Positions 38,824-43,871 of a stretch of 43,871 nucleotides of DNA are shown here, piece by piece. The stretch spans positions 515,390 to 559,260 of the forward strand of contig CP086218.1 in the NCBI GenBank assembly GCA_020844795.1, given 5' to 3'. Origin of the DNA: Methanothrix sp. (GTDB lineage: Archaea; Halobacteriota; Methanosarcinia; Methanotrichales; Methanotrichaceae). Position numbers and translations under genes: made by a program. The notes below the pieces were generated by a model, which saw only the letters and a program-made list of their open reading frames with translations, was not told the DNA's origin and searched no databases. Each line of letters begins with the position of its first letter. Within the stretch, counting starts at the first letter, position 1.

Positions 38824-39648
38824 TCATACGGGCTCGGGCTTATCGAGGAGCCCCGTCTTCGCGAGGATCGCCCCGGACCGGGCGTGGGGCTTCCTGGAGA
38901 TCGAGTCCATCGACTTCTCCATCTCCCTCGCCTCGTCGGCGAGGATCGCCGCAGCCCGCATCACCTCGTGGCCGGCGGCGGCGGTGAGGGCGATCCGATC
39001 CAGCTCCTTCAGCCTGAAGCAGGCAGCAGCGTCGATCCCCGCCACCGTCTGGGCCATGTGAAGGGCTCCGATCGCCTTCGCCCGGGCGTAGGGGTTCTTA
39101 AAGTCCATCCTCTCGGTGCACTTCTCGGGGTTTGAGAGGATGGCCGGCAGCTTCGCAGATCCGGCGATGATGCTGGCCATAGCTCCGTCCAGCTCCTCCT
39201 GGACTAGCCTGACCGACCCGCAGATGCTGAGGACCTTGATGGCGTCGGCGTTGAAGAGGGCCATCTCCGCCGGGTCGAGGAACTCCCGCTTCGCCCCGAT
39301 GAGGGGGTCGAAGGGGAGGATGATGTACCCGAACCCTTCGGCCTGGAGCGCCTCCCTGGCCTCCTTCTTGGAGGGACCGTCGGAGATGACGATCGTCGGC
39401 AGGTCTCTGTACAAAGCCCGGGCCGCCGTCGGCCCCGGGGTGGCGGCATTGGGGCCTATCATCACCACCAGCTGGGGCCCCCAGCCCTTCAGCTCCGCCG
39501 ACATCTCCGCCTCCCTCTCCGTCATCTTGGCTCCGAAGGAGAGGGATCGGACCTCGATGTCGGTCCTCTCGGCGATCTCGTCCAGGGCCAGGTCTGCGAC
39601 CAGGGAGGAAGCGACGTTGCCGAGCTTGATAAAACCGATCTTGAACAT
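38824..39648 (-). CDS. mtd: F420-dependent methylene-tetrahydromethanopterin dehydrogenase
   Basis: Catalyses the reversible F420H2-dependent reduction of methenyl-H4MPT to methylene-H4MPT in the C1 pathway of methanogenesis. The 274-residue length is typical. Marks are IGFIKLGNVASSLVADL, SFGAKM, VVMIGPNAATPGPTAAR, VISDGPSKK, FGYIILPFDPLIGAKREFLDP, NADAIKVLSICGSVRLVQE, and NPYARAKAIGALHMAQTVAG. A TATA-like CTTTTATGA is about 37 nt before the ATG, with a palindrome over the expected start of transcription. It is the only H4MPT C1 dehydrogenase or reductase seen in the window. Confidence 0.97.
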   Translation of the reverse strand: MFKIGFIKLGNVASSLVADLALDEIAERTDIEVRSLSFGAKMTEREAEMSAELKGWGPQLVVMIGPNAATPGPTAARALYRDLPTIVISDGPSKKEAREALQAEGFGYIILPFDPLIGAKREFLDPAEMALFNADAIKVLSICGSVRLVQEELDGAMASIIAGSAKLPAILSNPEKCTERMDFKNPYARAKAIGALHMAQTVAGIDAAACFRLKELDRIALTAAAGHEVMRAAAILADEAREMEKSMDSISRKPHARSGAILAKTGLLDKPEPV

Positions 39649-39699: not shown

Positions 39700-40104
39700 T
39701 CAATCCGCCCCTTCTACCCTCACCATCTCCCCGTCGGCGTCGACGGTCACCATGGTCCCATCTTCCAGGTCGAGGAGGCTGGCAGCGACCCCGTCCACCA
39801 GGGGGATGGCGCTGATGATGGCGCCGACGGCGACGATCGGCTCAGACTTTATGTTGATCATCGCCAGAGGCGCAGCCCCCCTCTTCTTCAGCTGGTAGAT
39901 GACGTAGGACCCGACGGTGGAGCCCTTCCCGCCGGGAAATATCAGGACCTTCGCTCCGAGGCTCCTCCCATAGAGCTGGTGGCCGGGATCGACGACCACT
40001 CCCGTCTCCGGGTCGACGGTACCGAGGAAGGATATCGGCTCCTTCGTGACGAGGGCAGGTCCGGTGGCCCTCCCCCCCGATATCCGGTGGCATCGGATCT
40101 CCAA
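39700..40104 (-). CDS. phosphomevalonate dehydratase small subunit (aconitase X swivel, DUF126)
   Basis: The small, swivelling subunit of archaeal phosphomevalonate dehydratase, which makes trans-anhydromevalonate 5-phosphate in the modified mevalonate pathway for isoprenoid lipids. The 134-residue protein has GGRATGPALVTKEPISFLG, VDPETGVVVDPGH, LIFPGGKGSTVGSYVIY and AIPLVDG, all typical of the DUF126 domain. A TTG at 40104, 2 nt after the large-subunit stop, gives the conserved LEIRCHRISGG start; the longer frame to 40137 lies inside the preceding gene. The pairing with the large subunit makes the assignment strong. Confidence 0.92.
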   Translation of the reverse strand: MEIRCHRISGGRATGPALVTKEPISFLGTVDPETGVVVDPGHQLYGRSLGAKVLIFPGGKGSTVGSYVIYQLKKRGAAPLAMINIKSEPIVAVGAIISAIPLVDGVAASLLDLEDGTMVTVDADGEMVRVEGAD

Positions 40105-40106
40105 GG

Positions 40107-41270
40107 TCAGACCCCCCCCGTCGCTCTCCCGACACACTCCTCGACGCTTCCGTAAGCCGCCTTCATCTTGCAGAGGGTGGGGACGTACGCCAGAGCCTTC
40201 CCGGAGTTGACCATCATCTTTCTGTACCTATCGCCAGCCGGGGATACCACCATGCATGTGTCGCAGAAGACCCGCGCCCCCGACCTCTCGATCTTCGCCA
40301 CCAGGTCCGCACGCCTCTCAGCTATGGCCCGGGCGGTGCAGATCCATAGCTCCCTCTCGACCTTTTTGCCCTCCAGGAGGCGGGCGACCTCGGCGAGCTC
40401 CCTCTCCGAGGAGTGGGGGCAACCGATGGCTATGACCTCCACCTCGTCGTCGGGGGCGAACCCTTCCCGGACCTCCTGGAGATCTTTATCGCTCACCAGA
40501 ATCTCCTCAGACCCCTTTGGAGCTGAGGGCGCGTCCTCATCGAAGTAATAGAGGGCGACGGAGCCGCTGGCGGCCATCGCCGCCCCCAGGGCCTTCAGGT
40601 CGTCGACATCGGGCCTTTTCCGGAATATGAACCGGGGAACCCCGTCCCCCACCTCCTTTCCGACGATGTAGCCCAGGATCCCATAGTCGGAGGCTTTCAG
40701 ATCGGAATCGACGGTGATTACGTGGGTCGGGATCCTCTTCTCCTCGAGGTGGTAGCCGTACCGGGGGGTCTTCCCCACCAGAGCCGCCGCCAGGGCCGAG
40801 GGCCCCCCCTCCCGGTTGGTCCTCGCCCCGATGACGGAGTTGGCGAAGGAGACGGCAGAGGACTCGCTCCAGGCGAGGTGGTCTCCCCTCCGGGCGAGGT
40901 CGGGCCTGATCTGGTAGGGCGTGCAGGTGCAGTCAGGGAATACGCCGAGGCGGCGGTAGGCCTCGACGATCTCCAGCTGCTTTTCGGCGAACCTCTCATC
41001 AATCCCCATCTCCCGCCACCGGGAGAGGTCCATCCCCGCAGGGTTGAGGACGGCCGGGACGACGACCCTCCCCCGAAGGTCTTTTATCCACTCCAGCCCC
41101 GCCTCCCCGATCGTCTTGAAGGAGACCCCCGCCACCTGGACACTCCTGACGGGGATCAAACGGTCGGCGCCGTAGATGTCGCCTAGGACCACCAGGATCT
41201 CCATCGCCCTCCGCAGACCGTCACCGAGCTCCCCCTGGTACGCCCGCTCCTCCTCCCGCGATAGATGCAT
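40107..41270 (-). CDS. phosphomevalonate dehydratase large subunit (aconitase X, DUF521)
   Basis: The catalytic, iron-sulfur subunit of archaeal phosphomevalonate dehydratase. The 387-residue protein has MHLSREEERAYQGE at the start, VQVAGVSFKTIGEAG, the cluster-binding region DCTCTPYQIRP, WSESSAVSFANSVIGARTN, and further cysteines in IAIGCPHSS and VFCDTCMVVSP. A strong TATA-like CTTTTTATATACCC on the minus strand is centred about 26 nt before the ATG, so the mRNA is probably leaderless; a G-run lies between. It is immediately followed by the small subunit gene. Confidence 0.94.
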   Translation of the reverse strand: MHLSREEERAYQGELGDGLRRAMEILVVLGDIYGADRLIPVRSVQVAGVSFKTIGEAGLEWIKDLRGRVVVPAVLNPAGMDLSRWREMGIDERFAEKQLEIVEAYRRLGVFPDCTCTPYQIRPDLARRGDHLAWSESSAVSFANSVIGARTNREGGPSALAAALVGKTPRYGYHLEEKRIPTHVITVDSDLKASDYGILGYIVGKEVGDGVPRFIFRKRPDVDDLKALGAAMAASGSVALYYFDEDAPSAPKGSEEILVSDKDLQEVREGFAPDDEVEVIAIGCPHSSERELAEVARLLEGKKVERELWICTARAIAERRADLVAKIERSGARVFCDTCMVVSPAGDRYRKMMVNSGKALAYVPTLCKMKAAYGSVEECVGRATGGV

Positions 41271-41339: not shown

Positions 41340-42263
41340 TCAGATCAGCCTCCCGATGGGGTGGCCAGCGGCAGGCCAGACGTCCAGATCCATCACCGCC
41401 TCCGAGACGAGGATGTCGGCCATCGCCGCCACCGGGAAGACCTCCCCGGACCTTTCGATGGGGCCGTAGAGGACGAAGTCGCCCCCCGCCAGGATCTCCA
41501 GGCCCGCGGAGGCGGAGTCGCAGGCGAGCCTCGTTCCCCTCTCCTTCGACCGGAGCCAGCGCCATGAGGAGACGGCGTTGTGGATCCCCGAGCCCGTCGG
41601 AAGGCCGAACCTCGCCTTTGCAAGTACGGTGGCCCGAAGGGACCTGCCCGCCCCGTCCCCCAGGGGGACGACGCCTGGATCGATGAGGAGGTTGTTCATC
41701 CCGAGGCGGCCTGCGAGGTCGATCAATCCTCCTGACCTCCCAGCACCCCCCTCCTCCAGGGCCTTTATCGTCCCCTCGACGGTGGAGTCGGCGGGGCTGT
41801 AGCCGAGGATGATGGCGGAGTCGATCTCGCAGTGGGCGAGGGCCTCCTCTTCGCGGGCCGTCGTGGCGAGGCCGATGCTGTTGTAGATGGAACGGTCGGC
41901 GAGGCCGACCTCTGAGACGATCTCCGCCATGGAGATCCTCGTCCCCGCCTCGGCGGAATCGAGGATGAGGGGGCCGGACCAGAGTCCTTCGACGAAGTCG
42001 AGGTAGCGGCCGAAGGCCTCCGGGGTCCTGGCATATATATGTAAAACGGCGGGGTTTCCTGTCTCCTCCGAGAGGGCCGTCTGCTGCTCGATCAGGCCGG
42101 CGGCCGCCTCCTCGTCGAAGGTCCCTTTCTTATCGTCCTCCACGATCCCGTGCCCCTGATAGAATATGGTGCCGCAGAGGGCAGTCGGATTCTCCCCCGG
42201 CTGCCCTCCGATCTTCACCCCGCCGACGTTCACAACCTCCTGATCTCGCGCAAACCTGAACAA
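41340..42263 (-). CDS. mtrH: MtrH-family methyltransferase, solitary and divergent
   Basis: Related to subunit H of the Na+-pumping methyl-H4MPT:coenzyme M methyltransferase, which moves the methyl group from H4MPT to the corrinoid on MtrA. The 307-residue protein has QEVVNVGGVKIGGQPGE, TGNPAVLHIY, ILDSAEAGTR, DRSIYNSIG, FGLPTGSGIHNAVSSW and DFVLYGPIERSGEVFP. It lacks the rest of the mtrEDCBAFG operon nearby, being flanked by uvrC and the dehydratase operon, and several family blocks are altered. It may be a paralogue acting with another corrinoid protein. TTG 42263 aligns with the usual N-terminus and has GAGG upstream; GTG 42269 is an alternative. Confidence 0.85.
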   Translation of the reverse strand: MFRFARDQEVVNVGGVKIGGQPGENPTALCGTIFYQGHGIVEDDKKGTFDEEAAAGLIEQQTALSEETGNPAVLHIYARTPEAFGRYLDFVEGLWSGPLILDSAEAGTRISMAEIVSEVGLADRSIYNSIGLATTAREEEALAHCEIDSAIILGYSPADSTVEGTIKALEEGGAGRSGGLIDLAGRLGMNNLLIDPGVVPLGDGAGRSLRATVLAKARFGLPTGSGIHNAVSSWRWLRSKERGTRLACDSASAGLEILAGGDFVLYGPIERSGEVFPVAAMADILVSEAVMDLDVWPAAGHPIGRLI

Positions 42264-42335
42264 CTCCACCGCCTCAGGGTCGGGTTTCTCCTGCAGGCTA
42301 AAAAGAGTTGGGATGGCGGATCAGGCGAGGAGGTT

Positions 42336-43871
42336 TCACGACGGTATCGCCTTCTTCTGGAGGAGCCGGTTGTAAGTGACGGCAAACCGGTGGGCCTCGT
42401 CCCTCATCTCCCGGACGAAGAGGGAGGCCTCGTCGTCCTTTCTGAGGGGGAGGGGCCGGATCCGGCCTGGGGCATAGATCTCCTCCTCCCTCTTGGCGAT
42501 GGAGATGGCGGGAATGGAGAGGCCGAGGTTTCGGATCTCCCGGGTGGCGGCGAAGAGCTGCCCCTTCCCGCCGTCGATGACGATCAGGTCGGGCATCTCC
42601 CCCCCCTCCTCCTTCAGCCGGGAATAGCGCCTCCGGACGATCTCGCCGATGGAGGCGAAGTCGTCGATCCCCTCGACGGTCCTGACCTTGAAGCGGCGGT
42701 ACCCCTTCTTATCGGGCCTGCCGTCCCGGAACGCCACCATCGACCCGACGGTGAAGGACCCGGCGAGGGTCGAGACGTCGAAGACCTCGATAACCTTCGG
42801 CGGCTCGGGAAGAGAGAGCGCCTCGGCGAGGGCGGCGAGCTTCCTCTCGCCCCCGAAGAACCGGATCAAGAGGTTCCTGTCGGCGAGGTCGAGTAGCTTC
42901 CTCTTCTCCCCCTGCTTTGGGACCGTCACCCTCACCCTTCTCCCCTTGACGTGGGATAGAAAGTCGACGAGGGAGCCGTCCAGGGCTTCGCCGACGATCA
43001 GCTCCTCGGGGGGGTCGTTCTCGGAGTAGTACTGGACGATGAACTCCTCGAGGAAGCTCTCGGTCCGGGGGAAGACGAACTCTTCTTTCCCCTCCAAGGT
43101 CCCCTTGTAGACCTTGAAGAGCATCAGGTAGACCTCCTCCCCATCGGCGGCGTAGGCGAGGACGTCCTCGTCGAACCTCTTATTCCGCTCGACGTTCTGC
43201 CGTTCCTGGAGGGTCTGGAGGGCCCGGATCTCATCGCGAAGCTCCATCGCCTGCTCAAACTCGCACCTTTCGGCGAGGTGGGCCATCTCTTCATTTAGCG
43301 AAGCGATCAATTCATTGGTCCTCCCCTTCAGGACCGCCTCGGCCCGCCCGACCCGCCGCCCGTATTCCGCCGCCGAGATCTTTCCGATGCAGGGGGCGCA
43401 GCACGCCCCCATGGCGTGGCGGAGGCACTCCCGCTTAGGAAGCCTCCTGCAGGTCCGCAGACCAAAGGTCTTCCTGACGACGGAGAAGACGAGGTCCCTC
43501 TCCCGAGCGGAGACGAAGGGGCCGAAGTAGCTCCCTGGAGCGGTCCTCTTTCGGGATAGGTGGATCCTGGGATACTCCTCGTCAGTGATGTGGATCGAGG
43601 CGTAGCGGGAGGAGTCCTTCAGCCGGACGTTGTACTTGGGCCAGTGCTTCTTGATGAGGGAGCTTTCGAGAAGCAGCGCCTCCACCTCGCTGTCGGTGAC
43701 GATGAAGTCGAGGCCCCGGGCGGCGCAGACGAGGGCCGCTGTCTTGGGGTCGGTCTCCCTCTTCTGGAAGTAGCTCCCCACCCTCTTCTTCAGGTCCAGC
43801 GCCTTTCCTACGTAGATCACCTCGCCCGAGGCGTCTAGGAAGAGGTAGCAGCCGGGGAGGTGGGGGAGGGG
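42336..43871 (-). CDS. uvrC: excinuclease ABC subunit C, short form, 5'-truncated by window edge
   Basis: The nuclease subunit of nucleotide excision repair. The frame runs to the window edge, so the N-terminus is missing. The GIY-YIG domain is visible (VIYVGKALDLKKRVGSYF, with PGCYLFLDASG just before). Four cysteines follow (FGLRTCRR, CLRHAMGACCAPC), then the UvrB-binding UVR region (LAERCEFEQAMELRDEI). The C-terminal endonuclease part has FDVSTLAGSFTVGSMVAF, YRRFKVRTVEGIDDFASI and LIVIDGGKGQL. The protein ends at HRFAVTYNRLLQKKAIPS, so the usual C-terminal tandem helix-hairpin-helix domain is absent. A T5 run lies in the 66-nt gap before mtrH. Confidence 0.94.
   Translation of the reverse strand, partial: PLPHLPGCYLFLDASGEVIYVGKALDLKKRVGSYFQKRETDPKTAALVCAARGLDFIVTDSEVEALLLESSLIKKHWPKYNVRLKDSSRYASIHITDEEYPRIHLSRKRTAPGSYFGPFVSARERDLVFSVVRKTFGLRTCRRLPKRECLRHAMGACCAPCIGKISAAEYGRRVGRAEAVLKGRTNELIASLNEEMAHLAERCEFEQAMELRDEIRALQTLQERQNVERNKRFDEDVLAYAADGEEVYLMLFKVYKGTLEGKEEFVFPRTESFLEEFIVQYYSENDPPEELIVGEALDGSLVDFLSHVKGRRVRVTVPKQGEKRKLLDLADRNLLIRFFGGERKLAALAEALSLPEPPKVIEVFDVSTLAGSFTVGSMVAFRDGRPDKKGYRRFKVRTVEGIDDFASIGEIVRRRYSRLKEEGGEMPDLIVIDGGKGQLFAATREIRNLGLSIPAISIAKREEEIYAPGRIRPLPLRKDDEASLFVREMRDEAHRFAVTYNRLLQKKAIPS

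Follow-up and report, generated by a model that had tools for sequence, protein, structure and literature searches.

MtxH, an MtrH paralogue outside the Mtr complex of a Methanothrix genome, and its likely corrinoid partner MtxA

Introduction

The MtxH protein was first recognised in the 1990s. The mtxXAH operon of Methanosarcina was discussed by Harms and Thauer in 1997 (cited in PMC4632066), and a role with methylated substrates was proposed for it there; subgroup II of the MtrH proteins in PMC4632066 is MtxH, and PMC3087415 also mentions mtxA and mtxH. The methanol/methylamine role is the one functional proposal for MtxH that we found in the open-licence literature, and in that literature we found neither a biochemical test of MtxA or MtxH nor a tested function assigned to them.

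Several relatives are better characterized. For canonical MtrH of M. mazei (PDB 9QTP), Asp5 and Arg211 are described as contacts with MtrB, Asp5 as a salt-bridge residue, and a basic patch is proposed to hold the tail of tetrahydrosarcinapterin, H4SPT (PMC12774963). The soluble MtgA of Desulfitobacterium (PDB 6SJ8 and relatives) and MtoA of Methermicoccus are MtrH-family proteins that act between corrinoid proteins and pterins, and MtoA is thought to pass the methyl of methylated substrates into H4SPT (PMC8630106). MtrAH pairs have also been described, with a role that is called unclear or hypothetical (PMC9635834, PMC11291895, PMC9723677).

Here we describe an mtxH gene in a window of 43,871 nucleotides, the whole stretch of DNA that was analysed, from a Methanothrix genome (single contig, 2.02 Mb, 87.7% complete). 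Methanotrichaceae are acetate-using methanogens. With the mtxXAH genes of Methanosarcinales the window gene shares its clade, an identity of 50-54% to the second MtrH of Methanosarcina (among the matches listed) and a soluble MtrA paralogue in the genome, but it is separated from mtxA, mtxX lies elsewhere, and the basic tail patch is altered. Canonical MtrH has the same Pfam domain (PF02007) and the same pterin-site residues, whereas the window copy stands outside the mtr operon and has changed at Asp5 and Gln75. MtgA is likewise a soluble corrinoid/pterin methyltransferase of the MtrH family, yet the window copy scores 204 bits against the MtgA NCBIfam model, for which the cut-off is 550. The two-subunit MtrAH loci of Asgard archaea resemble mtxA-mtxH in having MtrA-like and MtrH-like neighbouring genes, but the MtrH encoded there is not part of the MtxH clade. 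In these loci (L170, L172, L183, L185) the two genes are lined up with another MtrH gene, which is incomplete in L185; several also carry DUF2114 (by Pfam in L170, L183 and L185, by eye in L172) and MetF (by Pfam in L172 and L183, by eye in L170).

Results

The mtxH gene and its neighbours

The intact mtxH frame encodes 309 amino acids and may start at a GTG (42269) or at a TTG (42263). The TTG start yields MFRF..., the usual N-terminus in the family, and agrees with the end of the gene at 42263 given in an earlier note made from the sequence alone. The product scores far over the cut-offs of both PF02007 (Table 1) and TIGR01114 (338 bits, cut-off 271.4), and a chance match to the MtrH family is therefore excluded. 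Pfam matches bear out the neighbours named in that note, uvrC on one side, 66 bp upstream, and an isoprenoid operon on the other, where the aconitase-X pair begins 69 bp downstream and is followed by mtd. Because there is a T-rich stretch 5' of mtxH and a TATA-like stretch 5' of the aconitase-X gene, mtxH may be transcribed on its own. Aconitase X belongs to the archaeal mevalonate branch. It lies no more than 1.3 kb from mtxH in 16 of the 18 Methanotrichaceae loci fetched, the exceptions being L046 and L053 of genus g9; a functional link was rejected and the proximity taken as incidental, so that aconitase X, though a conserved neighbour, probably plays no role in the function of mtxH.

Table 1. 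Locations of mtxH, neighbouring genes and related features elsewhere.
Feature	Location	Strand	Evidence or remark
mtxH, MtrH paralogue outside the Mtr complex	41340..42269	-	PF02007 331.6 bits (cut-off 22.8); tree; His at MtrH Gln75 position
uvrC (runs past the window end)	42336..43871	-	PF08459, PF22920, PF01541, PF02151; at one of the junctions of the proposed inversion
Aconitase X large subunit	40107..41270	-	PF04412 490 bits
Aconitase X small (swivel) subunit	39700..40137	-	PF01989 115 bits
mtd, F420-dependent methylene-H4MPT dehydrogenase	38824..39648	-	PF01993 406 bits; nearby C1 gene
mtxA, MtrA paralogue	G000:C1:1383565-1384224 (= L058:7566-8225)		PF04208
DUF2114 near MtrA/MtrH-type pairs	L081:4597-5925, L084:4798-6117, L111:5435-6784, L082:10696-12018		
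DUF2114, Asgard loci	L170:3943-5361, L183:3949-5349, L185:2300-3721		

The gene is under purifying selection, with dN/dS of about 0.18-0.31 against five congeners. Canonical MtrH is under tighter selection (about 0.04-0.08), and MtxH evolves faster.

A second MtrH beside a complete mtr operon

A profile search finds two PF02007 genes in the genome. The canonical one (434 bits) closes a complete mtrEDCBAFGH operon, in which subunits E, D, C, B, A, F and G were assigned in order by Pfam and H by PF02007. The window gene is thus an additional mtrH that does not belong to the mtr operon, as the earlier note had supposed, and the reading in which it would be the only MtrH, its operon split, is ruled out. 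The two proteins are identical at 122 of 305 aligned residues (40%). The divergent blocks that had been noticed are real in the alignment to PDB 9QTP, TIFYQGHGIV in the window copy standing against TMFYARHKIV; the genome's own canonical MtrH reads TMFYSRHKIV there.

Such a pair is common in the family. PF02007 matches occur in 47 of 50 Methanotrichaceae genomes, exactly two of them in 34, and where both are whole one scores about 405-436 bits and the other about 303-360 bits. MtxH is present in 8/8 well-covered genomes of g1, the genus of the window; one Methanotrichaceae genome that is 97% complete (G027) has none. Among the Methanosarcina genomes (g31), 21 of 23 have two PF02007 matches, and in those listed the second MtrH follows the MtrA paralogue and MtxX, the latter assigned by eye and confirmed by TIGR03270 for L069.

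The window protein has about 39-44% identity to canonical MtrH of the class, among the matches listed. In a tree of 86 rows it falls in a Methanotrichaceae MtxH clade (support 100/100), which is next to the MtxH sequences from Methanosarcinaceae, from ANME-2 and from Mtr-less genomes and apart from canonical MtrH; the genome's own canonical copy groups with the latter. Support for a clade that unites all MtxH is modest (95/59). This placement agrees with subgroup II (MtxH) of PMC4632066. The window gene is MtxH, the widespread MtrH paralogue of the mtxXAH operon already known in Methanosarcina, so that of the oddity first remarked upon the divergent second copy stands, while its singularity does not. 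As the partner gene mtxA is in the genome, we retain the name on grounds of ancestry and not of operon structure.

Two genomes of the Methanotrichaceae genus g11 have yet another MtrH, their third and a very divergent one, in a second mtr-like cluster (L051:323-4955, plus strand; L052:7911-12543, minus strand). By Pfam the L051 cluster holds MtrE, MtrD, MtrC and an MtrA with an MtrF-like C-terminus, and the cluster adjoins genes for an aldehyde:ferredoxin oxidoreductase and for a luciferase-like oxidoreductase of the F420 type. Its products may form a second membrane complex that transfers methyl or other alkyl groups.

Pterin-site and MtrB-contact residues

Residues were taken from M. mazei MtrH and counted in 59 MtxH and 48 canonical MtrH sequences; the numbering follows the M. 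acetivorans protein, which is equally long. The pterin residues Thr32, Asp103, Asn129, Asp196, His229 and Asn230 are kept in 59/59 MtxH. Position 75 is Gln in all 48 canonical sequences and His in all 59 MtxH, the window copy included. The MtrB contacts have fared differently: Asp5 is Asp in 45/48 canonical MtrH (29/29 from Methanotrichaceae, 16/19 others) and in only one of the 56 MtxH that have a residue at this position (three further rows are gapped), whereas Arg211 is kept in 57/59 MtxH. The window copy has lost Asp5 and kept Arg211. With its pterin residues kept, Asp5 lost and Gln75 replaced by His, MtxH looks catalytically complete, yet not built for the Mtr stalk.

Position 242 is acidic (Asp or Glu) in 21/27 Methanotrichaceae MtxH, with Glu in the window copy, against Lys or Arg in 26/32 other MtxH. 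To judge from these residues the basic H4SPT-tail patch is weakened in Methanotrichaceae MtxH, and the pterin, or the recognition of its tail, may therefore differ.

MtxA, the candidate corrinoid partner

The genome has two MtrA-type (PF04208) genes, one in the mtr operon and one, mtxA, outside it and about 826 kb from mtxH. The earlier note had suggested a search for orphan corrinoid proteins, and its description of mtxH as solitary needs qualifying: the gene does stand apart from the mtr operon, but a likely soluble corrinoid partner is encoded elsewhere, and the two are split only in g1. Over 178 aligned residues MtxA is 46% identical to the MtrA of the same genome, whose C-terminal membrane helix it lacks. 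Among MtxA-like sequences the cobalt-ligand His is kept in 105/105, a set that includes Asgard and g11 rows, and a crude membrane-helix threshold is passed by 8/97, compared with 41/44 MtrA.

In ten other genera, mtxA and mtxH are at most 1.3 kb apart in all 33 genomes that have both genes, although for G034 the distance was read from a short fragment of MtxH; in g1 the genes are adjacent in none of eight informative genomes. A ninth g1 genome (G014) has fragments only and stands outside this count, as do eight more genomes without one or both second copies, seven of them less than 85% complete and the other being G027. In Methanococcoides (L127:2572-3933, L136:2572-3933) and a relative (L075:6671-8032), mtxA and mtxH are fused in a single 453-aa frame. 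Because of this adjacency and fusion, MtxA is likely the partner of MtxH, the pair forming one functional unit. The third gene, mtxX, is at G000:C1:389344 in the window's genome and is unlinked to mtxH by coordinates in this and three further genomes (G011, G046, G015).

A winged-helix (HTH) regulator gene and a GvpD/KaiC-like ATPase gene lie divergent to mtxA (L059:7675-9560 and equivalents) in 8/8 g1 loci and in most other genera; regulation of the mtxA-mtxH pair by these two proteins is possible.

How the pair came apart

What separated mtxA from mtxH in g1? There, mtxH adjoins uvrC in eight of nine genomes, with only a fragmentary locus in the ninth, and in five of eight loci (G000, G009, G011, G012, G013) uvrB comes after mtxA on the same strand, UvrB being confirmed by Pfam for L059. 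In two of the other three, G007 and G008, the contig stops less than 0.7 kb away; in G010 a stretch of 15 kb contains no uvrB. A rearrangement in the g1 ancestor, most simply an inversion with its ends between mtxA and mtxH and between uvrC and uvrB, would have split the pair. Reversing such an inversion predicts a same-direction uvrC-uvrB tandem, and this is seen in 5 of 15 sister-genus loci, directly in L088, L092, L094 and L098 and with about 1.5 kb between the genes in L097. The remaining ten loci, of which some are truncated and one is from the closest genus (L087), show no uvrB. With uvrB beside uvrC in only 5/15 sister loci and beside mtxA in 5/8 g1 loci, the inversion is likely, not proven.

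Discussion

The corrinoid/pterin methyl transfer first suggested for this gene is borne out as probable by the kept pterin residues, the family and the mtxA gene. We propose that MtxH is a cytosolic methyltransferase outside the Na+-pumping Mtr complex, with a predicted TIM-barrel fold after its relatives, whose solved structures span nearly the whole chain. It would move methyl groups between methyl-H4SPT (or methyl-H4MPT) and the cobalt of MtxA, most likely in the direction of MtxA, which, as a soluble MtrA paralogue with no membrane anchor, would be the methyl carrier. That MtxH is a methyl-H4SPT:MtxA methyltransferase is, in our judgement, quite probable; its paralogy, intact pterin site, partner gene and conservation are observed directly, and activity and partnership are deduced from them. 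MtrE is absent from 6/6 genomes whose only MtrH among the matches listed is MtxH-like, and in the four of them for which loci were fetched (L081-L084) MtxA lies beside MtxH; the pair thus does not need Mtr.

Other roles for MtxH can be considered. An alternative or spare H subunit, swapped into the membrane Mtr complex under some condition, would account for the shared fold family, the 40% identity to the genome's own MtrH, the retention of Arg211 and a score above the TIGR01114 cut-off; it is hard to square with the near-universal loss of Asp5, the invariant His75, the soluble MtrA paralogue that accompanies MtxH in all 33 other-genus genomes with both, and the keeping of MtxH where no MtrE is found, and we hold it to be highly improbable. 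A decaying remnant with no function is the least credible reading: MtxH does evolve faster than canonical MtrH and the operon is broken in g1, but dN/dS is well below 1, the pterin residues are intact throughout and no well-covered g1 genome lacks the gene. A bypass of Mtr, in which MtxA and MtxH make methyl-CoM from methyl-H4SPT with no sodium pumping, follows a role suggested for the MtrAH of Methanomassiliicoccales and Asgard archaea (PMC9723677, PMC11291895). Against it, inspection by eye of the fetched Methanotrichaceae loci revealed no CoM methyltransferase next to mtxH or mtxA, and through the bypass an acetate user with little energy to spare would presumably forgo the methyl transfer that conserves energy; we consider this reading unlikely.

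Does the pair instead feed methyl groups from methanol, methylamines or methoxy compounds into H4SPT, as the published proposal has it? MtoA and MtgA do work between corrinoid proteins and pterins (PMC8630106), and the MtgA structures are those of MtxH relatives. A search with PF02607, the domain of MtaC/MtbC-type corrinoid proteins, nevertheless gave no match in 4/4 Methanotrichaceae, namely the window's own genome, at 87.7% completeness, and three near-complete relatives, each with an assembly of no more than two contigs, as compared with 14 matches in M. acetivorans and 18 in a genome of genus g28. The extra methyl-donor route raised in the earlier note is accordingly not supported. Further evidence against the proposal comes from g28 and g29, which we take to be the methylotrophs Methanolobus and Methanomethylovorans: 26/26 genomes of g28 and 3/4 of g29 have a single PF02007 match, the fourth g29 genome has none, and those proteins among the matches listed are all of the canonical type. 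Because MtxH is widely kept with no MtaC-type protein in the four genomes, the methanol/methylamine proposal is unlikely to hold in Methanotrichaceae, and for MtxH as such we regard it as very improbable.

If MtxH charges MtxA, where does the methyl go? Our best guess for the final acceptor is the core methionine synthase, of the MesC type. MtxH, MtxA and this synthase might together amount to a split MetH, in which MtxH would charge MtxA from methyl-H4SPT and MesC (MesA in Mtr-less methanogens) would hand the methyl of MtxA to homocysteine; we offer this tentatively, as a possibility that may well prove wrong. MesA is predicted to take methyl groups from MtrA, and MesC, the type of Methanosarcinales and Methanotrichales, to draw mostly on CoFeSP (PMC7857596). 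In two Mtr-less loci, L084 and L081, a MesA-type synthase (NF002119, 329 and 333 bits) lies 2-3 kb downstream of mtxA-mtxH on the same strand, with a DUF2114 protein (methanogenesis marker 14) also downstream on that strand; by eye, L082 has DUF2114 and no recognised MesA, and in L083 neither was recognised. The window's genome has a MesC-type gene by NF004712, a model taken as MesC because three copies are found in M. acetivorans; PF01717 does not detect MesC, giving no match in the window's genome and missing the M. acetivorans control. Since NF004712 is present in 151/156 genomes of the class, including genera with no MtxAH, MesC does not depend on MtxAH, and co-occurrence of the two was set aside as uninformative.

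A link to MetF and tetrahydrofolate, suggested by the Asgard and ANME-2 loci, was also considered and rejected, as MetF (PF02219) is found in 0/34 Methanotrichaceae genomes compared with 118/156 genomes of the class; the MtxH-less g28, g29 and most of f5 carry it. The ANME-2-type loci (L076:628-4650, L077:7679-11705) have folP-, folD-, glyA- and purN-like genes, by eye, about 2-3 kb from mtxA-mtxH.

Both in Mtr-less methanogens and in Asgard archaea, DUF2114 is repeatedly encoded close to pairs of the MtrA/MtrH type (Table 1). Its repeated ELGNTTTKC motif is suggestive of the ASKHA corrinoid activators, and DUF2114 could be a reductive activator of MtrA or MtxA.

The MtxH family itself was already known; what is new here is family-wide evidence against the methanol/methylamine proposal. 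Automatic annotation would call mtxH an Mtr complex subunit, because its product passes the TIGR01114 cut-off, and in Methanotrichaceae surveys that count mtrH as a marker of methanogenesis may arrive at inflated numbers. The wide retention of MtxH in this family, with no MtaC-type protein in the four genomes searched, points to house-keeping methyl transfer. The split MetH, if true, would supply the in-vivo methyl donor that is still missing for archaeal methionine synthesis and would explain why an acetate specialist keeps mtxA-mtxH.
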